From: an uncultured Bacteroidales bacterium
GTDB taxonomy: Bacteria; Bacteroidota; Bacteroidia; Bacteroidales; UBA4417
Reading direction: 5' to 3'
DNA length: 52,778 nt
Assembly (NCBI GenBank): GCA_903913645.1
Contig: CAIWMA010000132.1
Coordinates: 1 to 52,778 of the forward strand
Shown: one piece after another, positions 2,016 through 16,303 of the stretch
How the letters are laid out: the number at the start of each line of letters is the position of its first letter
Position numbering within the stretch: position 1 is the first letter of the stretch
Program-made: the position numbers and the translations under genes
Notes under the pieces: generated by a model
Seen by the model: only the letters and a program-made list of their open reading frames with translations
The model's database searches: none
What the model was told of the DNA's origin: nothing

Positions 2016-3554
2016 GTGAGACTACTTGGCGTTCACTCAAAAATTATCCTCCTGGCAGTCCTGCTGGCGCTGTATTTTTTCAGTAATTGTCAATCGCATA
2101 CCAATCCGCCAATAACCATGAAAACTCCAGATACCATACCAAGCCGTCAGCCTGCTGTGGCTGGCACTTTTTACCCTGCCGATCCGGCTGAAATTCAGCA
2201 TATGTTAAAAATGTACTTTGCCAAAGCGCCTGTTCATTCCTCCGACAGTGAAGTGATGGCGATCATTTCACCCCATGCGGGATATGTGTTTTCGGGCGAA
2301 GTGGCGGCGGCGGCTTTCAACCAGCTTGATCCTGAAAAGAAATATAAAACCATTTTTATCCTGGGAAGCAGTCACCGGAATTCATTCGCCGGAGCATCCG
2401 TTTACAGCATCGGAAATTATAGCACACCGCTTGGAATTGTGAAAAGCGATCTCGAAATCGCGCAGAAACTGGCAGCTGAAAATAAGGTCCTGGCTTTCGA
2501 TCCTCAGTATCATAAATCAGAGCATAGCATTGAAGTCCAGATCCCTTTTCTCCAATATTTTTTAAAAAAAGACTTCAAAATTGTGCCAATCCTTTTAGGT
2601 ACACAGGACCCGTCGATTTGCAAACAAATTGCAAAAGCATTAAAACCCTATTTTTTACCTGGAAATCTCTTTGTGATCAGCACTGATTTTTCGCACTATC
2701 CGGCATATAGGGATGCTATTATCACTGATCACCAGGTTGGAGATGCGATAGTGACCAACAATCCGAATAAATTTCTGAATGCTGTGGAAAGCTGTACCGG
2801 GAAAAATATTGAACACCTTGCAACGGGCTGTTGTTCGTGGCCTTCTGTATTAACCTTGATGTATCTCACCGAAGAAATGAAAGGAATTGCATTTAAAAAG
2901 GTTTTATATAAAAATTCAGGCGATTCGCAATATGGTGAAATGGACAGAGTAGTCGGATATTATGCCCTCAGCGTATTAAAGGAAAAACAGAACACGATGG
3001 CATTGTCTGATTCAGACAGGAACGTACTGCTGCAGATTGCCCGTAACACTATAAACACATATATTCAGGAAAGCCAGACTTCAACCGTTGACAGCGAATC
3101 TTTATCAACAACTTTACTTAGCAAGGCAGGTGCTTTTGTAACATTAAAAAAAGCGGGTGAACTTCGTGGTTGTATCGGTCACTTTGAAGCAGATAAACCA
3201 CTTTATAAGATTGTTCAGCAAATGGCGATTGCTGCTGCTACGCAGGATTACCGTTTCGATGCTGTAAATGCTTCTGAATTGAAGCAGGTTGACATCGAAA
3301 TTTCGGTGCTTACACCCATGCAGAAAATAAGCAATGTCAATACTATCAAACTTGGCATTGATGGCATTTATATCAGGAAAGGAAGCAGGAGTGGTACTTT
3401 TTTACCTCAGGTAGCCACCGAAACGCACTGGAACCTGGAAGAATTCCTGGGTCACTGTGCCCGTGATAAAGCCGGGATCGGATGGGAAGGATGGAAAGAT
3501 AAGGATGCTGAAATATTTGTTTACCAGGCATTTGTGTTTGGTGAAAAAGAATAG
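2016..3554 (+). CDS. AmmeMemoRadiSam system protein B (Memo-like) fused to AmmeMemoRadiSam system protein A (AMMECR1 domain), with N-terminal lipoprotein-like signal
   Basis: Memo features RQPAVAGTFYPAD, SPHAGYVFSG, LGSSHRNSFAG, STDFSHYP; then AMMECR1 features (LRGCIGHFEADKPLY, YRFDAV, DIEISVLTP). N-terminus IILLAVLLALYFFSNCQS resembles a lipobox. Confidence 0.9.
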   Translation: MRLLGVHSKIILLAVLLALYFFSNCQSHTNPPITMKTPDTIPSRQPAVAGTFYPADPAEIQHMLKMYFAKAPVHSSDSEVMAIISPHAGYVFSGEVAAAAFNQLDPEKKYKTIFILGSSHRNSFAGASVYSIGNYSTPLGIVKSDLEIAQKLAAENKVLAFDPQYHKSEHSIEVQIPFLQYFLKKDFKIVPILLGTQDPSICKQIAKALKPYFLPGNLFVISTDFSHYPAYRDAIITDHQVGDAIVTNNPNKFLNAVESCTGKNIEHLATGCCSWPSVLTLMYLTEEMKGIAFKKVLYKNSGDSQYGEMDRVVGYYALSVLKEKQNTMALSDSDRNVLLQIARNTINTYIQESQTSTVDSESLSTTLLSKAGAFVTLKKAGELRGCIGHFEADKPLYKIVQQMAIAAATQDYRFDAVNASELKQVDIEISVLTPMQKISNVNTIKLGIDGIYIRKGSRSGTFLPQVATETHWNLEEFLGHCARDKAGIGWEGWKDKDAEIFVYQAFVFGEKE

Positions 3555-3576
3555 CTATTATTTTTGAATCATAAAA

Positions 3577-6150
3577 ATGCCGGATACTCCCTATTCCATC
3601 GTAACTATCAGCACTATATGCCTGTTGTTTTATGGCTTGTCCGTCGCATTAGTAAAGTTTGAAATCATTTCCATTGCCTTTCAGCGAAAATTCTGGAACA
3701 CCTTGCTGTTGCTGGCTATAACCGTAGCTGGCAGCCTTGGATTGTTATTCGCAATTACAGTAAATTTCAAAATTGATCTTTCCATTGCCGACAGCCTCCT
3801 GGTATGGCATGTCGATTTTGGAATTGCACTTTTCCTGATTTCTGTATTTCATTTTTCATGGCATTTAAAATATTATTTGTCTGTTTTTGATAAACCTGAC
3901 AAAGCCAGCCAGGAATTTGATGATTCAATTGTCAAACCACTTTCAAATCTGCCAGGTAACAGGCCAGAGTTTAATTTAAAATGGCTTCCATTCAGCCTTG
4001 GCTTTACTGCCATGGCCACGCAGCTTATCCTGATCCGCGAGTTTTTGTCCGTTTTTAATGGAAACGAACTCGTAATTGGCATTGTACTCGCAAACTGGAT
4101 GTTACTAACAGGATTTGGAGCGCTCATGAATAGAAAAGCTAAAAATCCAGCAACTTTGCAAGGAATCATGGCAGGTTTATTCACATTGGCAATCATTCCG
4201 GTGATAACGCTTTTCCTGCTTTACCGGTTACGGAATATCGTACTTCCGGTTGGCGGTACTCCAGGCTTAGGCGAAATACTGGTTGGAACAAGCTTATTAC
4301 TGGCTCCTTTCTGCCTGCTATCAGGCTTGCTTTTCAGTGCAGTGAGCCACTATTTGTCGCATACGCTTACCGAAAATGCAATCAGCCTCACCTACGGATG
4401 GGAAACATTGGGAAGCATTGCCTCTGGCATATTATGCAGCCTTATTCTTGTTTTCATATTCGAACCATTTCAGAACCTGGCCATTATTCTTTTGCTCAAC
4501 AGCGTGATCCTTTTCCTGATTAGCAGAAAAGAGATTTTCGGGATCCGGAAAAAATTCCTCTTGTATCTTGCTGTTGCTGTTATAATTGCATTTGCTACCC
4601 TGGTTTCGGACCTGGATAAAACGGCTTTGCAATTTCTTTTCCCCGATCAGGAAATCGTTTCATTTAATGACACTCCTTATGGAAAACTTGTTGTGACAGA
4701 GAACGCAGGTCAGCTGAACATTTTTGAGAATAACACACTTCTTTTTACCACAAATAATCTAACTACGAACGAGGAAACGGTTCATTTCGCGTTGCTTCAG
4801 CGCCCGATTAATGGAAATGTCCTGCTTGTTGGCGGAGGAATATCGGGAGTGGCGGAAGAATGTTTAAAGTATCCGCTTAAGAGGCTCGACTGTTTGGAAA
4901 TCAATCCAGGGATCCAGGTAATTGGGAAATTATTCCATCTTTTGCCGAAAGATAAACGTTTTAAAATGCATATTGGTGATCCGCGCCTGCTTGTGAAAAA
5001 CATGTCGCAGGAAAAGGATCGGCTGCATTCTTTAAAGCAGCTAACAAAACAGGATATCGATACTTTTTCTTACGATGCAATTATCCTTAACCTTCCGGAG
5101 CCGTCGACTCTTCAGATCAACAGATTTTATGCGCTCGAATTTTTACAAATACTTAAATCCGTTCTCGTTGAAAACGGCATTGTTACACTCAGCCTTATCC
5201 CCACTCCTGATTATATGGGAAGCGACGCTTTAAAAGTTCAATCCACGATGTATAATACAATGAAAGAAGTTTTTCGGAATGTTTTGGTGATTCCCGGAGA
5301 GAAAAATTACTTCCTGGCGTCCGATGGAGCTTTAACTTCTGCTGTTTCATTTCTTGGTAAGAGCCGGGGAATACCGACCGAATATGTAAATGAATTTTAT
5401 CTTGATAATGTTTCGCTGAAGGAGCGTTCGGATAAAATCATGAAGCGGATTTCAGTTGAAGCACCTTTAAACCGTGACTTCGAACCGGTGGCTTGTTACA
5501 GGCAATTTAACTATTGGCTTAGTTACCCCGGAAACGCTGGTATCTATGTTGTTATTTTACCTGTTATCCTGGTATTATTATTTACCGGATTTCGTTCCGG
5601 CGGGATAACTGTGGCTTTGTTTTCAGCTGGGTTTAGTTCGTTTTCACTTGAAGTCATCCTGATATTAACTTTCCAGGTTTTATATGGCTACGTTTACGTG
5701 ATGACTGGAATATTCATTACCCTGTTTATGGCTGGACTAGCCATTGGCTTGTTTTTAACAAAGAGATTCTATAAAAGAGTTACATATCATTCGCTGATAA
5801 AACTACAGCTCACTTCTGTGTTTCTGGTCTTGGTATGCCTGGCCGGAATTTACTTTTTCAGGCTTTTTCAACTCTCAATAATATTAATGCACTTTCTTTT
5901 CAGTTTGCTTATTGTCAGCATAGCGATTGTAACAGGTACCCAGTTTCATATCACATCAGTTTTAAAAACCGGCGAAATCAATAAGGTTGCTGCTACAAAC
6001 TATTCCGCGGAACTGGCAGGTTCAGCAACAGGAGCGATAATAATTAATGCCTGGATTGTACCTTCTTTTGGTTTAATAGCTTCTCTCATAGTAGTTTCTG
6101 TTGTTAGTGTGTCGGGCATAATTCTCATGCTGCTAAAAAAGCAGGCATAA
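3577..6150 (+). CDS. large multi-TM protein with spermidine-synthase-like SAM-binding domain (fused MFS/spermidine synthase type)
   Basis: 857 aa; many hydrophobic helices at both ends; central VLLVGGGISGVAEECLKYPLKRLDCLEINPG resembles the polyamine synthase nucleotide-binding motif; 22 bp after the Memo-AMMECR1 gene. Confidence 0.75.
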   Translation: MPDTPYSIVTISTICLLFYGLSVALVKFEIISIAFQRKFWNTLLLLAITVAGSLGLLFAITVNFKIDLSIADSLLVWHVDFGIALFLISVFHFSWHLKYYLSVFDKPDKASQEFDDSIVKPLSNLPGNRPEFNLKWLPFSLGFTAMATQLILIREFLSVFNGNELVIGIVLANWMLLTGFGALMNRKAKNPATLQGIMAGLFTLAIIPVITLFLLYRLRNIVLPVGGTPGLGEILVGTSLLLAPFCLLSGLLFSAVSHYLSHTLTENAISLTYGWETLGSIASGILCSLILVFIFEPFQNLAIILLLNSVILFLISRKEIFGIRKKFLLYLAVAVIIAFATLVSDLDKTALQFLFPDQEIVSFNDTPYGKLVVTENAGQLNIFENNTLLFTTNNLTTNEETVHFALLQRPINGNVLLVGGGISGVAEECLKYPLKRLDCLEINPGIQVIGKLFHLLPKDKRFKMHIGDPRLLVKNMSQEKDRLHSLKQLTKQDIDTFSYDAIILNLPEPSTLQINRFYALEFLQILKSVLVENGIVTLSLIPTPDYMGSDALKVQSTMYNTMKEVFRNVLVIPGEKNYFLASDGALTSAVSFLGKSRGIPTEYVNEFYLDNVSLKERSDKIMKRISVEAPLNRDFEPVACYRQFNYWLSYPGNAGIYVVILPVILVLLFTGFRSGGITVALFSAGFSSFSLEVILILTFQVLYGYVYVMTGIFITLFMAGLAIGLFLTKRFYKRVTYHSLIKLQLTSVFLVLVCLAGIYFFRLFQLSIILMHFLFSLLIVSIAIVTGTQFHITSVLKTGEINKVAATNYSAELAGSATGAIIINAWIVPSFGLIASLIVVSVVSVSGIILMLLKKQA

Positions 6151-6228
6151 ATCAGTTTTTTATTTGCATAACGAACACAAAAAACTAACATATGTTGTAC
6201 TTTTGTATAAGTTTCATGCTAATCAGCG

Positions 6229-7362
6229 ATGAACAGACGGACATTTATTAGCACAGGCATTGTTTCAGCAGCCTGCCTGATTTGTAAGAACCACATACTT
6301 ATGGCTGGAATAAATGAATTTTCTCAAGTCCCTCTTGAAAGTGCCGTGTGGAAATGGAGTCGTGAGGCTTACCACTATAAAGTTACGGCACGTGGCGTTG
6401 AATGCACCAACTGCCCCAACCAATGCACGCTTAAACGCATGGAAACCAGCAAATGCCGCAACCGCATCAATGTAAAGGACAAACTTTACTCCATTGCTTA
6501 TGGCAATCCATGTGCAGTACATATCGATCCGATAGAAAAGAAGCCATTTTTCCATTTTCTTCCTGCCTCAACAGCATTTTCTATTGCAACTGCCGGGTGC
6601 AATTTCGCCTGTCTGAATTGCCAGAACTGGGAAATATCGCAGAAAAGTCCGAAAGAAACAGAGAACATGGATCTTATGCCGGCGAAGGTGATTGATGCAT
6701 GCCTGAAAAATAGTTGCGAAAGTATTGCTTATACCTATTCCGAACCTACAGTTTCCTACGAATACGTTTACGATACCGCCAGGTTAGCCCGTGCAAGCGG
6801 AATTAAAAACGTCTATAAATCAAATGGATACATTAACGAGCCACCCCTCAGGATGTTATGCAAATACCTTGATGCTGCCAATATTGACCTGAAAGGATTT
6901 ACTGAGGACACGTATCTTAAACTAAGTTCAGGAAAACTTGCACCTGTTTTACGAACGCTGCAAGTTTTAAAGGAAGAAGGCGTCTGGTTAGAGATCACAA
7001 ACCTTGTTATCCCATCGTGGACTGACAATATGAAAACCATTCGCGATATGTGTAAATGGTTAGTTTTCAATAAAATGGATGATACACCCTTGCATTTCAG
7101 CCGTTTTTCGCCTTTATATAAATTAACGCAGTTGCCCGCTACGCCATTGCTCACTTTACAAAGGGCGCGGGATACAGCTCAGAACGCAGGCATGAAGTAC
7201 GTTTACGTCGGAAACGTGCCCTGCTCAAACCTCGAGAATACCACTTGCCCGAAATGCAGAAAAACCGTTGTGGAGAGAAAAGGTTTCAGGGTAATTCAAA
7301 ACAATGTTACAGGTGGCAACTGCAGGTTTTGCGGGGAGAAAATCGCGGGAATATGGAACTGA
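6229..7362 (+). CDS. AmmeMemoRadiSam system radical SAM enzyme
   Basis: CNFACLNCQNWEIS (CxxxCxxC), CTNCPNQCTLKR and a C-terminal CPKC...CRFCGEKIAGIWN zinc-ribbon-like tail; located next to Memo/AMMECR1. Confidence 0.92.
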   Translation: MNRRTFISTGIVSAACLICKNHILMAGINEFSQVPLESAVWKWSREAYHYKVTARGVECTNCPNQCTLKRMETSKCRNRINVKDKLYSIAYGNPCAVHIDPIEKKPFFHFLPASTAFSIATAGCNFACLNCQNWEISQKSPKETENMDLMPAKVIDACLKNSCESIAYTYSEPTVSYEYVYDTARLARASGIKNVYKSNGYINEPPLRMLCKYLDAANIDLKGFTEDTYLKLSSGKLAPVLRTLQVLKEEGVWLEITNLVIPSWTDNMKTIRDMCKWLVFNKMDDTPLHFSRFSPLYKLTQLPATPLLTLQRARDTAQNAGMKYVYVGNVPCSNLENTTCPKCRKTVVERKGFRVIQNNVTGGNCRFCGEKIAGIWN

Positions 7363-7444: not shown

Positions 7445-8572
7445 TTATTTCACCATTTTCCCGTTCGCCATAAGGTGAACGATATTGAACGAAGGATCTA
7501 AAATAAGAATATCGGCATCGAAACCCTCCTGAATATATCCCTTCCCGGTCAGTTTCAAAATATCGGCAGGGTTCGAAGTAGCAACCTGCAAGGCAATTTC
7601 CAATGGAATTCCATCCTCGGTAACGGCTTCTTTAATTTCCCTGAGAATAGAATCAGGCAAACCCATTTCCATCTTAATCAGTTTGCCGGTTTCGGGATCA
7701 AATCCCGGCAACGATCCACAAGCATCTGAGGTAAATGTAATATGCTTGATGGGCACACCGCTTTCGAGAAGCAGTTTTAGTGCTTTTGAAGGTTTGATTT
7801 CTTCGTCCATATAATACGGATACGAACTGGTAGTAATATCCACATACCCTTTTTTACCATATTCCTTAGCGTCTTCAAAAATATAGTCGTTCCGGTTGCA
7901 ATGCGTTGGAATAAACTGTTTGTAGCCCATTTCGCTGTTAGCCACTATATCGTGTAATGGTTTGAACGGATTGCGGGCATCACCCATATGCATATTTATG
8001 ATTCCGGCTTTACCGCCAATCATTCCGGCAACGCGGGCATGGCCGGTTAATTTTGACAATTCGTCAATAGTCGGAACCGAGGAACGATGGTCGGAAATAG
8101 CGATTTCCCCAACGCCTATTATTTCTTCGAAAAGGGTTATGTCGCGCATAATATCGCCGGCAATGTTTGGAGGTGGCACCTGGTAAGCACCGGTATACAT
8201 CCATGCCGACATACCTTTTGCTTTTATACTTTTCACTTTCATCAACACACTTTCCACGCTTCGTGTAATTCCGTCGGTTCCAAGGCAACCAATAACGGTT
8301 GTTACTCCGGCATCAATCATCATGCTAATTTCAAGTTCAGGCATACGACTAGCCGGGCCACCTTCGCCGCCACCACCGGTAATATGAACATGAGAGTCGA
8401 TCAGGCCGGGCACAAGGCTCAGCCCCTCACATTCAACCACCTTAATATCAATGTCTTGCGGCGCATCGATATGATCCTGAATAACAAGGATGGATTTTCC
8501 GCCGACAAGTATATCTTTCTTCCCGATATATTGCGGGTTGTAAACGAATGCATTCTTTATCAGAGTAAGCAT
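7445..8572 (-). CDS. iadA: isoaspartyl dipeptidase (beta-aspartyl peptidase, IadA-like amidohydrolase)
   Basis: 375 aa amidohydrolase; GLIDSHVHITGGGGEGG, TSDACGSLPGFD, VATSNPADILKL and GFDADILILD match IadA. Confidence 0.9.
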   Translation of the reverse strand: MLTLIKNAFVYNPQYIGKKDILVGGKSILVIQDHIDAPQDIDIKVVECEGLSLVPGLIDSHVHITGGGGEGGPASRMPELEISMMIDAGVTTVIGCLGTDGITRSVESVLMKVKSIKAKGMSAWMYTGAYQVPPPNIAGDIMRDITLFEEIIGVGEIAISDHRSSVPTIDELSKLTGHARVAGMIGGKAGIINMHMGDARNPFKPLHDIVANSEMGYKQFIPTHCNRNDYIFEDAKEYGKKGYVDITTSSYPYYMDEEIKPSKALKLLLESGVPIKHITFTSDACGSLPGFDPETGKLIKMEMGLPDSILREIKEAVTEDGIPLEIALQVATSNPADILKLTGKGYIQEGFDADILILDPSFNIVHLMANGKMVK

Positions 8573-8668
8573 ACAAAAAGTTTTTATAAATATTTTCTGA
8601 TAAAATTATTGATTTTTTTAATACTATTTTACTTAATTTCGTTTACTCAATTTTATTCAGTTCTTACT

Positions 8669-10633
8669 ATGTGTATGCCTAAACCACATATTCTCTTTTT
8701 TTTAGCGTGCTCATTCACGGTTTATGCTCAACCGGGCCGTTTATTGCTGGTTGGAGGAGGATCTGAAAAAAACGGCGTATCCAGTTGGAGCACACCCGCT
8801 TATAAATGGGCTGGAGCCGGGAATCGGGTCGCAATTATTGGTACTTCAACAGGCGCTCTTGCTCCATATTTCAAGCAACAATGTGGCGCCGCTTACGCGA
8901 AGGAGTTCGCAATTGCCAGTCGCGACAGTGCCAACAGCCAGGTTTTATACGATACACTTTTAACATACCAGGTTATTTTTTTCAGGGGTGGCGATCAAAC
9001 GGAGTATTACAATCTTTACCGGAATACAAAACTGCAGGATGCTGTAATTAACCTTTATAACAAGGGCGGCACAATTTGCGGAACTTCGGCCGGCATGCAT
9101 ATTCTTTCTTCTATTGTATATACAGCTGCAAATGGCACGGTATATTCCTATGAATCTATAGAAAACCCGAATAACATCTATGTTACGCTTGCCAGCGATT
9201 TTATGGATTTTGCACCGGGTTTTGTTTTTGATACACACGTTGCCGAACGGGCTCGGTTTGGACGCACCGTGGGATTCCTGGCCTATTACAAAATGAACAA
9301 GGGCATCGATATTACCGGTATCGGCATGGATGATATGACTTGTATGACAGTGGATGAAAACGGCCTGGGCACAGTGCGGGGAACAGGGTGTGCCAACATT
9401 TATATGGCCGGAAGTACTTATTCGGTAAACGGCACAAAACTGCTGACTGATAAAGTTGATATTATGCAGCTCCTCCAAGGGTGCACCTATAATTTAAATA
9501 CAAAACAGGTTACTTTTAATACCCTCAACAGGCAAATAAATTCGGCTTCTTTCGAGGAAACCGGTAATTACACCCTGCTTGCAAGTGGAAGCAACACACT
9601 TGCCGAAAACCTGTCAATGCTCACTGAACTGGTTTCAGGAATCGGTTTACCTGCCGATCCGATTCTTATATTATCGGGTGATGAAGCTCTGGCAAATACA
9701 TTTAAAAGTAAGCTTGCGCAATTGGGGGCTGCAGAATCAAACCTTTTCATCATAAACGCTGCTGCGGGCAATGATGCTGATCTTTCTATGAAAATAAACG
9801 CTGCAGTAAAAATCATGTTTGTTTCCAACAATACAGCAGTTTTCAACCAATTTCTGAATACACCCAACGGTGATTTGTTATTGAAAAAAGTTCATACTAA
9901 CGGCATGTTCACAGCTTTTGTCGGCGACGATTCGCGGTACGCAGGTAAAACTGTGGTGGAAAATTATTACACTTTATATTCTTCATATTATGCCCAGCTG
10001 ACATTCAGCAAAGGTTTATCGCTGCTAAATCATAGCATGATCATGCCGAATACGTTTGCCAACAGCGATATGTACGAAAATTCCGCTACCGCTGTTCCCT
10101 ATTGCATGTCGATGGACACGCTGAAATACGGAATCTGGCTCACTAACCATAATTACATGAAATTTACGCCTGTTGTCGGAAAGGCAACACTTACAGGCTT
10201 TGGCACTGCCCCGGTTATGGTTATAAGCAACGCAGGAACACTTTCCGGTTTTTCAACCCAGACCGGCACAGGCGTTACAGGTTCTAAGCCTCGCATGGTT
10301 GCTGGTTTCGACCATTTGCAACTTTCAATGATCGATTACACTACGCCTTATATAATGGGGAATATATTTGTTGAAGGAGTGAAAAATTATACTTTTAATG
10401 AATCGATTGAAATTTATCCAAATCCGGCAAAAAACTGGTTGAATATACCATTAAAATATCGCAACTTTGAATGGGGAATTCACGATCAGCAAGGCCGCCT
10501 GTGTTTGACTGGAAACTCTGACAACCAATCAAAACAACTCGATGTTTCAACATTAAAATCAGGTCACTACATACTGAGAATACAAGACTCAAAAACGAAG
10601 GCTCATGCTTCGGTAAAGTTTATTAAAGAATAA
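8669..10633 (+). CDS. exported cyanophycinase-like peptidase (S51 family) with T9SS type A sorting domain
   Basis: Start set at ATG 8669 (MCMPKPHILFFLACSFTVYAQ signal peptide); LLLVGGGSE, GGTICGTSAGMHIL nucleophile motif; C-terminus IEIYPNPAKNWLNI...GHYILRIQDSKTKAHASVKFIKE is a T9SS CTD. Confidence 0.85.
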   Translation: MCMPKPHILFFLACSFTVYAQPGRLLLVGGGSEKNGVSSWSTPAYKWAGAGNRVAIIGTSTGALAPYFKQQCGAAYAKEFAIASRDSANSQVLYDTLLTYQVIFFRGGDQTEYYNLYRNTKLQDAVINLYNKGGTICGTSAGMHILSSIVYTAANGTVYSYESIENPNNIYVTLASDFMDFAPGFVFDTHVAERARFGRTVGFLAYYKMNKGIDITGIGMDDMTCMTVDENGLGTVRGTGCANIYMAGSTYSVNGTKLLTDKVDIMQLLQGCTYNLNTKQVTFNTLNRQINSASFEETGNYTLLASGSNTLAENLSMLTELVSGIGLPADPILILSGDEALANTFKSKLAQLGAAESNLFIINAAAGNDADLSMKINAAVKIMFVSNNTAVFNQFLNTPNGDLLLKKVHTNGMFTAFVGDDSRYAGKTVVENYYTLYSSYYAQLTFSKGLSLLNHSMIMPNTFANSDMYENSATAVPYCMSMDTLKYGIWLTNHNYMKFTPVVGKATLTGFGTAPVMVISNAGTLSGFSTQTGTGVTGSKPRMVAGFDHLQLSMIDYTTPYIMGNIFVEGVKNYTFNESIEIYPNPAKNWLNIPLKYRNFEWGIHDQQGRLCLTGNSDNQSKQLDVSTLKSGHYILRIQDSKTKAHASVKFIKE

Positions 10634-10653
10634 ACCACGCAAAAATCGCATAT

Positions 10654-11922
10654 ATGCAAAAATTAAAAACAGTCTTTTGTCTTACCCTGCTATTGGTCAC
10701 TTTATCAGCTTTTAGCCAGGTGCTTCCAAAGGGAAGCCTGGTAATTGTCGGCGGAGGCCTCGAACCTGACAATAAAAGCATTTTCAATCAGCTGATTGAA
10801 TTGTCCGGTGGCCCCGAAAAGGCAGTGTTTTCAATAATCCCTTCTGCAAGTGGCGTTGCAACACAGACCTACGTGTATTTTCGGAGCGAGCTGCTTTCGT
10901 ATGGTGTAAAGTCTGAAAACATACACCTTATTCCAATTGCAATGGCCGACGACGACAGCACAAAGGATCTTGATGAATCGACCTGGAAAAATAACGGAAA
11001 TGACCTGAAGCTGGCTGAAATTGTACGGAAAAGCTCCTGTGTCTGGTTCAGCGGAGGTGACCAGATCCGAACAATGAAAACGCTGCACAAAGCCGACGGA
11101 AGTAATACTCCCGTGCTTGATGCCGTGTGGGAAGTTTTCAGATCAGGTGGCGTGGTAGGCGGAACAAGCGCCGGGGCAGCCATTATGAGTGAGCCTATGA
11201 TAGGCGCCGGGAATAGCATGGGCGCACTTAAACATGGAGTAATTACCAACTACAAAGACGAGGATTTTCCTGATGGCGACGGCGTGCTTCTGACTCATGG
11301 ACTAGGGTTTTTCCCGGTCGGAATGGTTGACCAGCATTTTAATACGCGGGCCCGGCTTGCGCGGTTAATTATGGTTATGATGCACGACCAGAAAACTTTG
11401 AAACTTGGTTTTGGAGTGGACGAAAATACAGCCCTCATTTATAACGGGAAATTAAGAACCCTGAAAGTTGCCGGTGCAGCTGGTGTTACCCTCATCAATA
11501 CTGCCAATGCTACTATTTCACAGGCTCAGAACCTACCTCAAATCGAAAATTTATTGATAAGTTATCTCGACGAAGGCGACGGTTATGATATAGCCACCGG
11601 CAATATTATTCCTGCCGAAGGAAAGAAAAGCACGATTGGTAACGAATACTACAATGTAGCAAATCCAGGTCAGACCGGGATGTTTTCGGGTACTGCAACC
11701 AACTTTTTAAACCTGATAACAGTAAACCTAATTGATAATAAAGCTGTAAAAAAAGTAACCAATTTAAACTTTACAGGCCAGGATTCCGGATTCCTGGTTA
11801 CTTTGAGTAAAACTCCTGAAAGCAAAGGATTCTACACCGACAAACCCTTTGACAGATACACGGTTACCGACGTCAGGATGGATATTACTCCGGTTAAAAT
11901 ACAGGTAACCCCACTTAAGTAG
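10654..11922 (+). CDS. cphB: cyanophycinase (S51 family), exported
   Basis: Signal peptide MQKLKTVFCLTLLLVTLSAFSQ; LVIVGGGLEPDN, VWFSGGDQIR, GGVVGGTSAGAAIMSEPMI, FFPVGMVDQHFNTRARLARL typical of cyanophycinases. Confidence 0.88.
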   Translation: MQKLKTVFCLTLLLVTLSAFSQVLPKGSLVIVGGGLEPDNKSIFNQLIELSGGPEKAVFSIIPSASGVATQTYVYFRSELLSYGVKSENIHLIPIAMADDDSTKDLDESTWKNNGNDLKLAEIVRKSSCVWFSGGDQIRTMKTLHKADGSNTPVLDAVWEVFRSGGVVGGTSAGAAIMSEPMIGAGNSMGALKHGVITNYKDEDFPDGDGVLLTHGLGFFPVGMVDQHFNTRARLARLIMVMMHDQKTLKLGFGVDENTALIYNGKLRTLKVAGAAGVTLINTANATISQAQNLPQIENLLISYLDEGDGYDIATGNIIPAEGKKSTIGNEYYNVANPGQTGMFSGTATNFLNLITVNLIDNKAVKKVTNLNFTGQDSGFLVTLSKTPESKGFYTDKPFDRYTVTDVRMDITPVKIQVTPLK

Positions 11923-12030: not shown

Positions 12031-14937
12031 ATGCGAAAAACTAACTTATTATTGCTGATGTTTACATTTTGCATCAGTTCGCTATGGGCACAGACTATTC
12101 CAATAAGTGGAACGGTTACCTCGGCTGCTGATAAAATGCCGATGCCTGGCGTAACAGTACAGCTGAAGGGTACGCAAAAAGGATCAATTACCGATATTAA
12201 TGGTAATTATAGGCTTGAAGTACCTGCCAAAGCAATCCTTGTATTTTCATTTGTAGGGATGAAACTCCAGGAAGTTCCTGTGGAAGGCCGCAAACAGATA
12301 GATGTTGTAATGGATGAAGAAAGAGTCGATCTGGGTGAAGTTGTGGTTGTAGGGTATAGTACTTCCAGTAAAAAACTGATCTCAGGATCAATAAGTACTG
12401 TAAACGAAAAAGAACTTGAAAATCTTCCGATCAGGACTATTGATGGTGTACTTCAGGGAAAAGCCGCAGGCGTATCGGTAAACCAGAATTCGGGTACACC
12501 CGGTGGCCGGAATGCCATTAAAATGAGAGGTGGCAGCTCTATCAATGCCAGCAACCAACCACTGATTGTTGTTGACGGTGTTCCAACCATAACCGGAAGT
12601 TTTGGACAGATCGGTTATAGCGGGCAGGAGATCGATGCTATGTCGGATCTCAATCCAAACGACATTGAATCATTTACCATTCTTAAAGACGCATCTGCAA
12701 CGGCGATTTACGGTGCGCGTGCTTCGAATGGTGTTATCCTTATTACCACCAAAAAAGGCAACTCCCAGAGAACTAACGTAAACCTCAGCACGTCCTATGG
12801 CTGGCAAACTATGCCAGCAGAACGGATTCCTCATCTGATGAATGCGGCCCAATGGAACGAATATAAAGGTACCGATGTAAAGGGCATAGATACCGACTGG
12901 ATGAAAGAGATCCTCCAGGTTGCTCCTACCTCAAATACCGAGCTTTCAGTTAGTAGTGGGAATGATAAAACACGTTTATTTATTTCGGGGAACTTATACA
13001 GCCAGGATGGTACTGTTAAATCCACCTCCTTCAATCGTTACAGCGGACGTATTAATGTGGATCATAAATTATTGCCCGATCTCACAATCGGTGGTGGAGT
13101 ATCTATGACTTACTCGGTTAACTACCGTGTTGAAGGCGACCAAACTCTGTACGGCCCATTACCAAATGCACTCTCTATTCCAGCTATTTACCCGGTTTAC
13201 AATGCTGATGGAAGCTATAACGAAGATGGTCCATATGCCAACCCTTTAGCTATAATTAATGAAACAAAAAATGTAGCCTACACCAATCGTAACAACGGGA
13301 ACATCTACGTCGAATATAAATTTCTGGATGGGTTTACTTTTAACACCAAGTGGAGCGCAGATATTTATAATCTTCGCGAACATGAGTACGATCCTATTAC
13401 CACTGCACAGGGGAAAAAATATAATGGACTGGGAATTGAAGGAACTACATATGTAAGCAACCTTGTAGGTAGTAATGTACTTCAGTACGTAAAAACTGTC
13501 AATAAAGTCCACAATTTTGAAGCTATGGCAGGATTCAGTTTCGAAAAATATGCCAGGCGGACTACCTACATTGAGGCTACTAATTTTCCAAACGAAAATT
13601 TTCAATATATCAACTCTGCAGGTACTATCAGGGCAGCCAGTGCATCTGCGCTCGACAGGGGTATGACATCCTATTTCGGCCAGTTCAAGTACAACTTCAT
13701 GTATAAATATATTTTTACCCTTACTGCCCGTGCCGACGGATCATCCAAATTTGGTTCAAACAACCGCTTCGGGTATTTCCCTGCCGGTTCGTTTGCCTGG
13801 AGGCTTACTGAAGAACCTTTTATGAAGAACATACCTGTTATCAGTGATCTTAAAATCAGAACCAGCTTTGGCTTAACCGGTAACGACGGCATCGGTGATT
13901 TCGCTTCACTTGGTTTATATAAAGGCGGATATAACTACAGCCAGCAATCGGGTATACAGCCAACCCAACTGCCTAACCCGAACCTGAAATGGGAAACCAC
14001 ACGCCAGATGGGACTGGGAATTGATCTTGGCTTATTGAAAGACAGGATAAGCATTGTGGCTGACATCTATTACAACAAAACCAGTGATCTTCTTCTTGCC
14101 CGCCCTATACCACTTTCGTCAGGATTTAGCTCAATTACTTCCAATATAGGGGATATGGAAAACAAGGGTGTTGAATTTGTACTAAACACTGTTAACGTTC
14201 AAGGCGATTTCACATGGAATACATCGCTCAATTTTTCGGCTAACCGCAACAAAGTATTGAAACTGTTCAACGGACAGCCAATTACCGACCAGGGACGCGG
14301 AAACAACTGGGTTATGGAAGGCGAGCCTATCGGCGTTTTTGTAGGGTATAATTTTCTTGGCATCGACCCCACAACAGGGAAAGAGGTTTATGAAGATTTA
14401 AATGGTGACGGTGTTATTACAACCGATGACCGGAAAATTACAGGAAATCCAAATCCTGACTTTACGTTAGGTTTGACTAATACATTCGCGTACAAAGGAT
14501 TTGATTTTTCGTTTTTCCTTCACGGCGTATTTGGAAACGATGTGTATAATGGCACTTGGATGTATCTTCAGGCACCAACAGACCTGGACCAGCAAACAAC
14601 AGCTGTTTTGCAGGCATGGAAAAAACCAGGTGATGTGACAGATATTCCACGTATCACCGATGGTTTAAAATCATCGAGGTTTATTGAAAATGGCTCGTTT
14701 CTCCGCATAAAGAATGTTACTTTAGGGTATACTCTTTCGAAAGACCTGCTTAAAAAACTTTGGTTAAAATCGGCCAGGATTTATGTTTCGGGTCAAAACT
14801 TATACACGTTTACCGCTTATACCGGTATGGACCCTGAAGTAAATTATTACAGTACCGATAATATTATCATGGGTACCGACTTTTTTACTTATCCTCAGTC
14901 GCGTACTATACTGGTAGGTTTAAACATTGGTTTCTAA
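12031..14937 (+). CDS. SusC/RagA family TonB-linked outer membrane protein
   Basis: 968 aa; CarboxypepD-reg-like N-terminal domain (ISGTVTSAADKMPMPGVTVQLKGT), plug domain MRGGSSINASNQPLIVVDGVP, TAIYGARASNGVILITTKKG, terminal beta-strand. Confidence 0.97.
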   Translation: MRKTNLLLLMFTFCISSLWAQTIPISGTVTSAADKMPMPGVTVQLKGTQKGSITDINGNYRLEVPAKAILVFSFVGMKLQEVPVEGRKQIDVVMDEERVDLGEVVVVGYSTSSKKLISGSISTVNEKELENLPIRTIDGVLQGKAAGVSVNQNSGTPGGRNAIKMRGGSSINASNQPLIVVDGVPTITGSFGQIGYSGQEIDAMSDLNPNDIESFTILKDASATAIYGARASNGVILITTKKGNSQRTNVNLSTSYGWQTMPAERIPHLMNAAQWNEYKGTDVKGIDTDWMKEILQVAPTSNTELSVSSGNDKTRLFISGNLYSQDGTVKSTSFNRYSGRINVDHKLLPDLTIGGGVSMTYSVNYRVEGDQTLYGPLPNALSIPAIYPVYNADGSYNEDGPYANPLAIINETKNVAYTNRNNGNIYVEYKFLDGFTFNTKWSADIYNLREHEYDPITTAQGKKYNGLGIEGTTYVSNLVGSNVLQYVKTVNKVHNFEAMAGFSFEKYARRTTYIEATNFPNENFQYINSAGTIRAASASALDRGMTSYFGQFKYNFMYKYIFTLTARADGSSKFGSNNRFGYFPAGSFAWRLTEEPFMKNIPVISDLKIRTSFGLTGNDGIGDFASLGLYKGGYNYSQQSGIQPTQLPNPNLKWETTRQMGLGIDLGLLKDRISIVADIYYNKTSDLLLARPIPLSSGFSSITSNIGDMENKGVEFVLNTVNVQGDFTWNTSLNFSANRNKVLKLFNGQPITDQGRGNNWVMEGEPIGVFVGYNFLGIDPTTGKEVYEDLNGDGVITTDDRKITGNPNPDFTLGLTNTFAYKGFDFSFFLHGVFGNDVYNGTWMYLQAPTDLDQQTTAVLQAWKKPGDVTDIPRITDGLKSSRFIENGSFLRIKNVTLGYTLSKDLLKKLWLKSARIYVSGQNLYTFTAYTGMDPEVNYYSTDNIIMGTDFFTYPQSRTILVGLNIGF

Positions 14938-14956
14938 CACATAAATCTGAAAACAC

Positions 14957-16303
14957 ATGAAAAAGATACTATTTTACCTCTTTGCCCTGGCATTAACAAT
15001 AATGTCGTGCAACAAAGTACTGGATGTAAAGCCTACAGATAGCGTTGCGGCAGAAGATGCGATAAAAAACAAGGCTGGAGTTGAGCATGCTCTCATAGGT
15101 TCTTATAACGCCCTGCAAGCTACTGGTCTCTATTACCTGAATGCGATGATTGTTGGCGACATTGCTGCTGATAATCTTACACATACCGGCACCATGATGG
15201 AATATAGCCACATTGAAATCAAGCCAATTCCTGCCGAAAATTCAATTGTTGAAGGGATGTGGTCAGGAGCTTACAACGGTATTAATTGCGTAAACAATAT
15301 CCTGGTCAAAATTCCTGGTATTGAGGGAATTACACCGGCTGAATCCGATCAGTATGAAGGTGAAGCCCTGTTTATACGGGCGTTGCTACACTATTACCTG
15401 GTTACCTATTTTGGCGGAGTGCCTGTACAAACCCAGCCTACCCTTGACCTTAGCCATGTTGATATTGCACGCAACACTGTACCGGAAGTTTATGCCCAGA
15501 TTATCAGTGATCTTACAACCGCCAAAGCAAAGCTCTCCAAAACTAAAGTTAGAGGCAGAGCTAATAAATATGCTGCTTCTGCCTTATTGGCAAAGGTATA
15601 TTTATCGAAGTTTCAGCAGTTAAGTGACCAGCCATCAGCAGGCCTGTCAATTACCGAAGCAAGCTATGTAATCGATAGTGCAGGTTATGCACTTGCTACT
15701 GATTACTCAAGTTTGTTCAATCCAAAAAACAATACAAATGAGTCCATTTTTGAAGTTGTATTTGACCTTCAGAACTATACCCGACTGGCACAATATTTCT
15801 TTTCGCGAAATTTATCCGGGAGGTACGAAATTGCTCCTACAACAGGATTGATAAAGAGTTTCGAGAAAAATGATACTTTAAGGCTTGACGCAGCTATTGC
15901 TTATGACACTATTAACAAACAGCCTTATGGCTTTAAATATATTGATGTTGCCGGTGGTACCGATCATGTATATGTTTTGCGTCTTGCTGAAATGTACCTT
16001 ATCAGGGCTGAAGCGCTGGTTTATTCCAATGGCTCCCTTGCAAGCATTCAGGCTGATATTAACACGATACGTAAGCGTGCCGGTCTTTTAAATACTACTG
16101 CAGCAACAATTCCCGATCTGAAACTTGCGCTTGAGAACGAATGCCGCCATGAGTTTGCTTTCGAAGGCCACCGTTGGCCTGATCTGGTCAGGACCAAAAG
16201 AGCAACCACTTTGCTTGGAATAGATGAAAAATATACGCTATTCCCAATTCCTTTGAGCGAAAAGCAAACCAATAATTCAATGGTACAAAATCCCGGTTAT
16301 TAA
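14957..16303 (+). CDS. SusD/RagB family nutrient-binding outer membrane lipoprotein
   Basis: 448 aa; lipobox TIMSC; MWSGAYNGINCVNNIL, EALFIRALLHYYLVTYFGGVP, AEMYLIRAEA, ECRHEFAFEGHRWPDLVR. Confidence 0.97.
   Translation: MKKILFYLFALALTIMSCNKVLDVKPTDSVAAEDAIKNKAGVEHALIGSYNALQATGLYYLNAMIVGDIAADNLTHTGTMMEYSHIEIKPIPAENSIVEGMWSGAYNGINCVNNILVKIPGIEGITPAESDQYEGEALFIRALLHYYLVTYFGGVPVQTQPTLDLSHVDIARNTVPEVYAQIISDLTTAKAKLSKTKVRGRANKYAASALLAKVYLSKFQQLSDQPSAGLSITEASYVIDSAGYALATDYSSLFNPKNNTNESIFEVVFDLQNYTRLAQYFFSRNLSGRYEIAPTTGLIKSFEKNDTLRLDAAIAYDTINKQPYGFKYIDVAGGTDHVYVLRLAEMYLIRAEALVYSNGSLASIQADINTIRKRAGLLNTTAATIPDLKLALENECRHEFAFEGHRWPDLVRTKRATTLLGIDEKYTLFPIPLSEKQTNNSMVQNPGY

Follow-up and report, generated by a model that had tools for sequence, protein, structure and literature searches.

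The locus studied here raises the question of whether radical SAM chemistry can take place outside the cytoplasm. As far as we know, the characterised radical SAM enzymes all work where SAM and low-potential electrons occur, in the cytoplasm or an organelle matrix or facing the cytosol, and SAM is not known to us to be available outside the cytoplasm. The window, which is the whole stretch of 52,778 nucleotides that we analysed, corresponds to contig 132 in a genome of 5.7 Mb from Bacteroidota. Between positions 2016 and 7362, one strand of the window encodes a fusion of Memo and AMMECR1, a membrane protein that we call spmM, and a radical SAM enzyme (Table 1). The three components of the AmmeMemoRadiSam system are encoded together, and spmM alone intervenes. 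From its sequence features, we consider it likely that this locus encodes an extracytoplasmic AmmeMemoRadiSam system.

In the open papers that we could search, an exported radical SAM enzyme is nowhere described, and the trio of Memo, AMMECR1, and radical SAM proteins is mentioned just in passing. A 2024 paper on Tat (PMC10924467) mentions a radical SAM gene merely as a neighbour of other genes. Tat annotations may already be present on individual database entries.

Table 1. Features of the window discussed in the text.
Feature	Position	Strand	Remarks
Memo+AMMECR1 fusion with N-terminal export signal	2016..3554	+	GTG start, 512 aa
Sec / lipoprotein-type signal MRLLGVHSKIILLAVLLALYFFSN, followed by C25	2016..2090	+	Asn at -1 is non-canonical; the Cys recurs in Bacteroidota homologues
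Internal ATG (Met35), immediately ahead of the Memo domain	2118..2120	+	Conserved in L047, L050, L052, L053, L054
Memo domain	2145..2972	+	
AMMECR1 domain	3024..3539	+	
spmM, polytopic membrane protein with spermidine-synthase-like domain (PF01564, Spermine_synth)	3577..6150	+	857 aa
N-terminal 3-helix extension of spmM	3577..3981	+	H78 and H92 invariant; H96 and Y99 nearly so
Spermidine-synthase-like (adenosyl-binding) domain, predicted on the outer face	4609..5541	+	
TACTTTTG, match to TAnnTTTG, the -7 consensus of Bacteroidota	6198..6205	+	23 nt upstream of the leader ATG; weak
AmmeMemoRadiSam radical SAM enzyme (TIGR04337)	6229..7362	+	377 aa; 334 bits against a cut-off of 220
Tat-type leader MNRRTFISTGIVSAACLICKNHILMAG	6229..6309	+	
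Radical SAM [4Fe-4S] motif C124-x3-C128-x2-C131	6598..6621	+	
Secreted cyanophycinase-like peptidase S51 genes	~8671-10633; 10654-11922	+	

Components of the system

A preliminary description of this DNA had read a Memo-like domain and an AMMECR1 domain in a single ORF, and profile searches bear this out. Residues 44-319 of the fusion match Memo (TIGR04336, E = 2.9e-70; PF01875, E = 5e-60) and residues 337-508 match AMMECR1 (TIGR04335, E = 1.8e-52; PF01871, E = 2e-53), so the domain order is B then A. All three components score above the curated NCBIfam cut-offs (236.6 bits vs. 26 for TIGR04336, 177.2 vs. 99 for TIGR04335, and 334.3 vs. 220 for TIGR04337), and as in other AmmeMemoRadiSam systems they are adjacent, with intact catalytic residues. 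This system differs from those in its export signals on both polypeptides, its B-A fusion, and its constant polytopic partner spmM; the second radical SAM homologue of the same genome, which has no leader, belongs to another clade.

The fusion is the sole Memo and the sole AMMECR1 of its genome. Its domains match human MEMO1 (PDB 3bcz, 7kq8) and archaeal AMMECR1 (1zq7) in sequence, and the His/Asp/Cys residues that resemble a metal site are conserved: H87, H120, D224, and H227 are invariant in 53 of 53 sequences, and C273 is present in 52 of 53. The solved proteins are stand-alone, whereas here both domains are fused and signal-bearing. We did not adopt the idea that Memo is a dioxygenase, as nothing in our analysis bears on it.

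The AlphaFold model of the radical SAM enzyme (mean pLDDT 88) matches pyruvate formate-lyase activating enzyme (E = 1e-14), whose structures (PDB 3cb8, 3c8f) are the closest to its core in both fold and sequence. Unlike that enzyme, it has an extra N-terminal C4 and a C-terminal C4 motif as well as a Tat leader, and there is no adjacent glycyl radical enzyme. The window's enzyme keeps the motif CNFACLNC, and the full set of three CX3CX2C cysteines is found in 92 of 92 leadered and 48 of 48 leaderless relatives. The leadered enzymes retain all of their catalytic and auxiliary cysteines. Because these enzymes keep their catalytic cysteines and Memo keeps its His/Asp/Cys set, export is not explained by loss of function.

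The genome also encodes a second radical SAM homologue (335 aa, G000:C9:42904-43878), which is leaderless and has neither Memo nor AMMECR1 as a neighbour. It falls in a separate clade of leaderless proteins (SH-aLRT 100). L065:8990-9994 and its relatives are orphan paralogues of this kind and form a separate, well-supported clade; in the window's genus, such genes repeatedly adjoin uracil-DNA-glycosylase-like and M23-peptidase-like genes.

Downstream of the system, a beta-aspartyl peptidase (7445-8572, - strand) lies beside the two cyanophycinase-like genes. One of these was called as an ORF of 848 aa from 8087, and its true start is probably near 8671. This group of peptidases (~7445-11922) is likely to degrade cyanophycin or aspartyl peptides. 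Next, at 12031-16303, are a SusC/SusD-like pair and two putative secreted proteins that resemble beta-propellers.

The leaders are conserved and usually agree

The fusion begins with MRLLGVHSKIILLAVLLALYFFSNCQS. Its candidate lipobox reads FSN before the cysteine; this cysteine recurs across homologues, the Asn at -1 is non-canonical, and some homologues would be cleaved elsewhere. The leader of the radical SAM enzyme, MNRRTFISTGIVSAACLIC, contains NRRTFI followed by a long uncharged stretch. It has the twin-basic motif and hydrophobic stretch of a Tat substrate, and the genome encodes tatC and three genes of the TatA family. Both the Tat-like leader and CNFACLNC had been noted in the preliminary description.

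We compared the locus with 60 regions from the same genus or the same order and with 80 loci from named organisms; clustering of gene neighbourhoods used overlap filtering against antisense ORFs. Leaders are conserved across about 90 loci from many phyla. The leadered system is a widespread variant and not an oddity; the preliminary description had noted neither this spread nor spmM. There are two kinds of enzyme: those of ~335-345 aa start at the domain, and those of ~370-430 aa have an N-terminal leader. Aligning the N-termini of homologues gave no shift to downstream starts. In Bacteroidota the leaders have the form [ST/N/D][KR]R-x-F-[IL]-K, followed by an uncharged stretch. Among 73 Tat-type leaders, 42 have RR and 31 have KR, which is the weaker form of the motif and counts against export, and 62 have an uncharged stretch of at least 13 residues after the motif.

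The leaders are also translated and are not artefacts of misplaced starts. When the window is compared with its nearest relatives, the differences at the first, second, and third codon positions of the enzyme's leader are 3, 3, and 9; 9, 3, and 17; and 10, 3, and 12. The leader of the fusion shows the same trend more weakly (10, 5, 11 and 10, 6, 16). Because the differences in the leaders are mainly at third positions, the leaders are under constraint at the protein level.

The fusion and the enzyme agree in whether they have a leader at 58 of 63 loci (Fisher test, 1e-6; the clustering of leader states on the tree means that such values overstate the evidence). A signal-bearing fusion accompanies a leaderless enzyme at five loci (L108, L109, L141, L150, and, by inspection, L170), and these count against our main reading. 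The lone opposite case, L112, has a leadered enzyme and a fusion with no signal, which is probably due to a wrong start call. Across the tree, the leader state changes about ten times, with only three contrasts on well-supported branches; independent contrasts drawn from the tree were too few to reach significance. A search of whole genomes for Tat-like starts by pattern performed hardly better than its control.

The RR/KR-x-F-[IL] motif, the uncharged stretches, the tatC and TatA genes, and the concordance of the leaders all favour export. Conservation, third-position changes, and concordance also lend support to the earlier suggestion that both leaders are real and that the chemistry would occur at or outside the inner membrane.

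A membrane protein accompanies the leadered enzymes

spmM shares its locus with a leadered enzyme in 59 of 88 cases and with a leaderless one in 3 of 53 (6e-14; like all of our association statistics, this ignores relatedness). Many of the leadered loci that lack spmM are cut by contig ends. Of the three leaderless enzymes with spmM, one is a second copy beside a leadered one, and one has a weak Tat leader. Counted by genome in 70 relatives, 30 of the 31 that encode a leadered enzyme also have a strong match to spmM (E <= 1e-60), as does 1 of the 39 that encode none, and the link holds even if the two genes are on different contigs. The association extends across Bacteroidota, Ignavibacteriae, Desulfobacterales, Omnitrophota, Latescibacterota, Acidobacteria, Planctomycetota, Chloroflexi, and others, mostly in metagenome-assembled records.

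The AlphaFold model of spmM (mean pLDDT 84) has seven transmembrane helices, a domain like the aminopropyltransferases, and seven more helices. The soluble domain matches PDB 1uir by Foldseek (E = 1.6e-9) and the family by profile (E = 3.5e-29). Might spmM then be an ordinary membrane-bound spermidine synthase with an indirect link to the system? We think this improbable, despite the fold. spmM shares the soluble fold and the adenosine-binding Glu and Asp (E441 and D468, which bind ribose and adenine) with aminopropyltransferases such as 1uir and the PRK03612 type, but it has a 14-helix core, and its scores are far below the cut-offs for spermidine synthases (27 bits vs. 249.6 for TIGR00417 and 86 vs. 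472 for NF002956). In the aminopropyl pocket, most of the acidic residues are replaced: GGG[DE]G has become GGGISG-like, and the first Asp of DxxD is Asn in 25 of 54 proteins. Also, strong matches to spmM are almost confined to genomes with leadered enzymes, and its domain is predicted to lie outside. Over 54 sequences, Lys+Arg in the loops number 19.3 on the side that holds the N-terminus of the core, compared with 2.6 on the opposite side, and the sign is the same in all 54. Given the positive-inside rule, this asymmetry predicts that the soluble domain is outside. Together, the retained E441 and D468, the changed pocket, and the predicted topology suggest an outward-facing adenosyl-binding domain on a body the size of a transporter, rather than a spermidine synthase.

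About a third of spmM proteins have the N-terminal 3-helix extension, in which H78, H92, and H96 are conserved with a 14-residue spacing. This could be a heme or electron-transfer module, although it had no match to a heme family in Pfam, and we saw no partner His helix. Stand-alone relatives of the 3-helix domain (L182:3028-3855, L183:3003-3671, and L184:1121-1747) combine a signal peptide with a segment rich in Cys (CGxYIDxDxDGxCDY-like). One of them, in genome G057, is two genes downstream of a single Rnf-Nqr subunit; we saw no full Rnf operon near it, so this neighbour is only a lead. Separately, L092:6952-10775 (genome G053) encodes three tandem Tat-leadered radical SAM paralogues beside spmM, and we found no Memo at that locus.

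Other probable export routes in relatives

Some relatives appear to reach the same location by different routes. In 14 enzymes, most of which come from Omnitrophota and other candidate phyla, the Tat leader is replaced by a plain Sec-type signal or anchor. Enzymes of this type were found in 8 of 10 genomes without a detectable tatC and in 5 of 28 genomes with it (p = 9e-4); incompleteness of the genomes should blur this pattern, not create it. A DsbD_2 gene adjoins 11 of the 14 Sec-type enzymes but only 1 of 76 Tat-type loci, and that one match is distant and weak. At L130, a single gene joins DsbD_2 to FMN_bind and Fer4_5 domains, and this long architecture is shared by L122 and L127. DsbD-type proteins transfer reducing power from one side of the membrane to the other, and an enzyme that is assembled outside and has eleven conserved cysteines would need such a supply. 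The Sec-type enzymes with DsbD_2 may be a single lineage: the AU test did not reject one clade (p = 0.81) and the constrained tree scored better, so we do not claim repeated independent origins.

In L137, L147, and L152, which form a clade with 98% support, a CxxCH motif lies between the Tat leader and the core. The CxxCH motifs in many other enzymes were set aside, as they are inside the C-terminal zinc-ribbon-like or the N-terminal C4 motifs and are not separate. c-type heme is attached solely outside the cytoplasm.

Another variant is an 838-aa ORF (L077:9285-11798, genome G012) that has Memo, AMMECR1, and radical SAM domains behind one lipoprotein-like signal; we found no tatC in its genome. 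Finally, a DUF362 gene is near eight Tat-type loci, and most of these genes encode a Tat leader of their own. The DUF362 gene lies beside the leadered radical SAM enzyme at L136, L143, L153, L156, L162, L166, and L171.

Could the working enzymes be cytosolic?

SAM and strong reductants are normally cytosolic, and Tat exports folded proteins with their cofactors (PMC10924467). The fold might therefore be exported without performing any radical chemistry outside: the enzyme would react before export, or it would serve as an Fe-S electron carrier. We consider this unlikely. The leadered enzymes keep every catalytic and auxiliary cysteine, and an enzyme of the Sec type cannot fold until it has been exported. 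Because Memo-AMMECR1 takes the Sec route, the partners would meet solely outside, and the near-constant partner of the enzyme is spmM, which is predicted to bind adenosyl compounds.

Somewhat less probable still is a dual location, with the leaders exporting part of the protein while the working enzymes stay in the cytosol, by means of internal starts or as unexported protein. Met35 of the fusion fits this: it immediately precedes the Memo domain, and the closest relatives share it, which makes a second product in the cytosol possible. It might be a second start or a relic of an ancestral cytosolic start. About half of the leadered fusions in Bacteroidota have a comparable Met, but most fusions from other phyla lack it. 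The preliminary description had named a downstream start such as this Met as what would overturn its reading. The leader upstream of Met35 is nevertheless conserved as coding sequence. Furthermore, the leader of the radical SAM enzyme runs straight into the core with no conserved internal start, and with a dual location the leaders would not persist in concert on both partners.

That the leaders are uncleaved tethers at the inner face, with the chemistry in the cytosol, is very unlikely: most of the enzyme leaders have no obvious cleavage site, and those of L122, L127, L130, and L132 resemble single-span anchors, but their positive residues precede the hydrophobic stretch, which by the positive-inside rule puts the N-terminus inside and the domain outside, and the RR/KR-x-F motif, the lipobox Cys of the fusions, the CxxCH of some enzymes, and the predicted location of spmM's domain likewise point outward.

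How an exported system might work

If the system is extracytoplasmic, as we favour, then the Memo-AMMECR1 fusion would be exported by Sec and would probably be lipid-anchored at Cys25. The radical SAM enzyme would fold in the cytoplasm, Fe-S cluster included, before it crosses the membrane by Tat, and the adenosyl-nucleoside-binding domain of spmM would sit at the inner membrane, on its outer face. Most likely, the enzyme would make the 5'-deoxyadenosyl radical outside the cytoplasm and, together with Memo-AMMECR1, act on an extracytoplasmic substrate.

The preliminary description regarded export as unexpected, because SAM and low-potential electrons are cytosolic. The neighbouring genes (spmM, DsbD_2, FMN_bind-Fer4_5, and the CxxCH motifs) offer a possible answer. 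spmM might handle the adenosyl compound, either by supplying SAM or by removing a by-product; that it supplies SAM is a tentative proposal. Electrons would cross the membrane by a module that depends on the lineage. In Sec-type relatives, this might be DsbD_2, with or without FMN_bind-Fer4_5, and at a few loci it might be a c-type heme on the enzyme itself. The DsbD_2, FMN_bind, and Fer4_5 regions beside the Sec-type enzymes resemble parts of DsbD/CcdA and of Rnf/NosR-type conduits. These are absent from the window's own locus, where the His-bearing extension of spmM (H78, H92, and H96) is a candidate substitute. The combined picture, with radical SAM chemistry outside, spmM as a translocator or presenter of SAM or an exchanger of by-products, and transmembrane electron modules that feed the enzyme, is speculative.

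If it is true that there is a widespread exported branch with its own conserved membrane partner, this would overturn the assumption that radical SAM enzymes work solely in the cytoplasm or an organelle matrix or facing the cytosol. It would imply that SAM or an analogue is present on the outer side of the membrane. It would also open a new way into the unsolved roles of Memo and AMMECR1, each of which has a homologue in humans.
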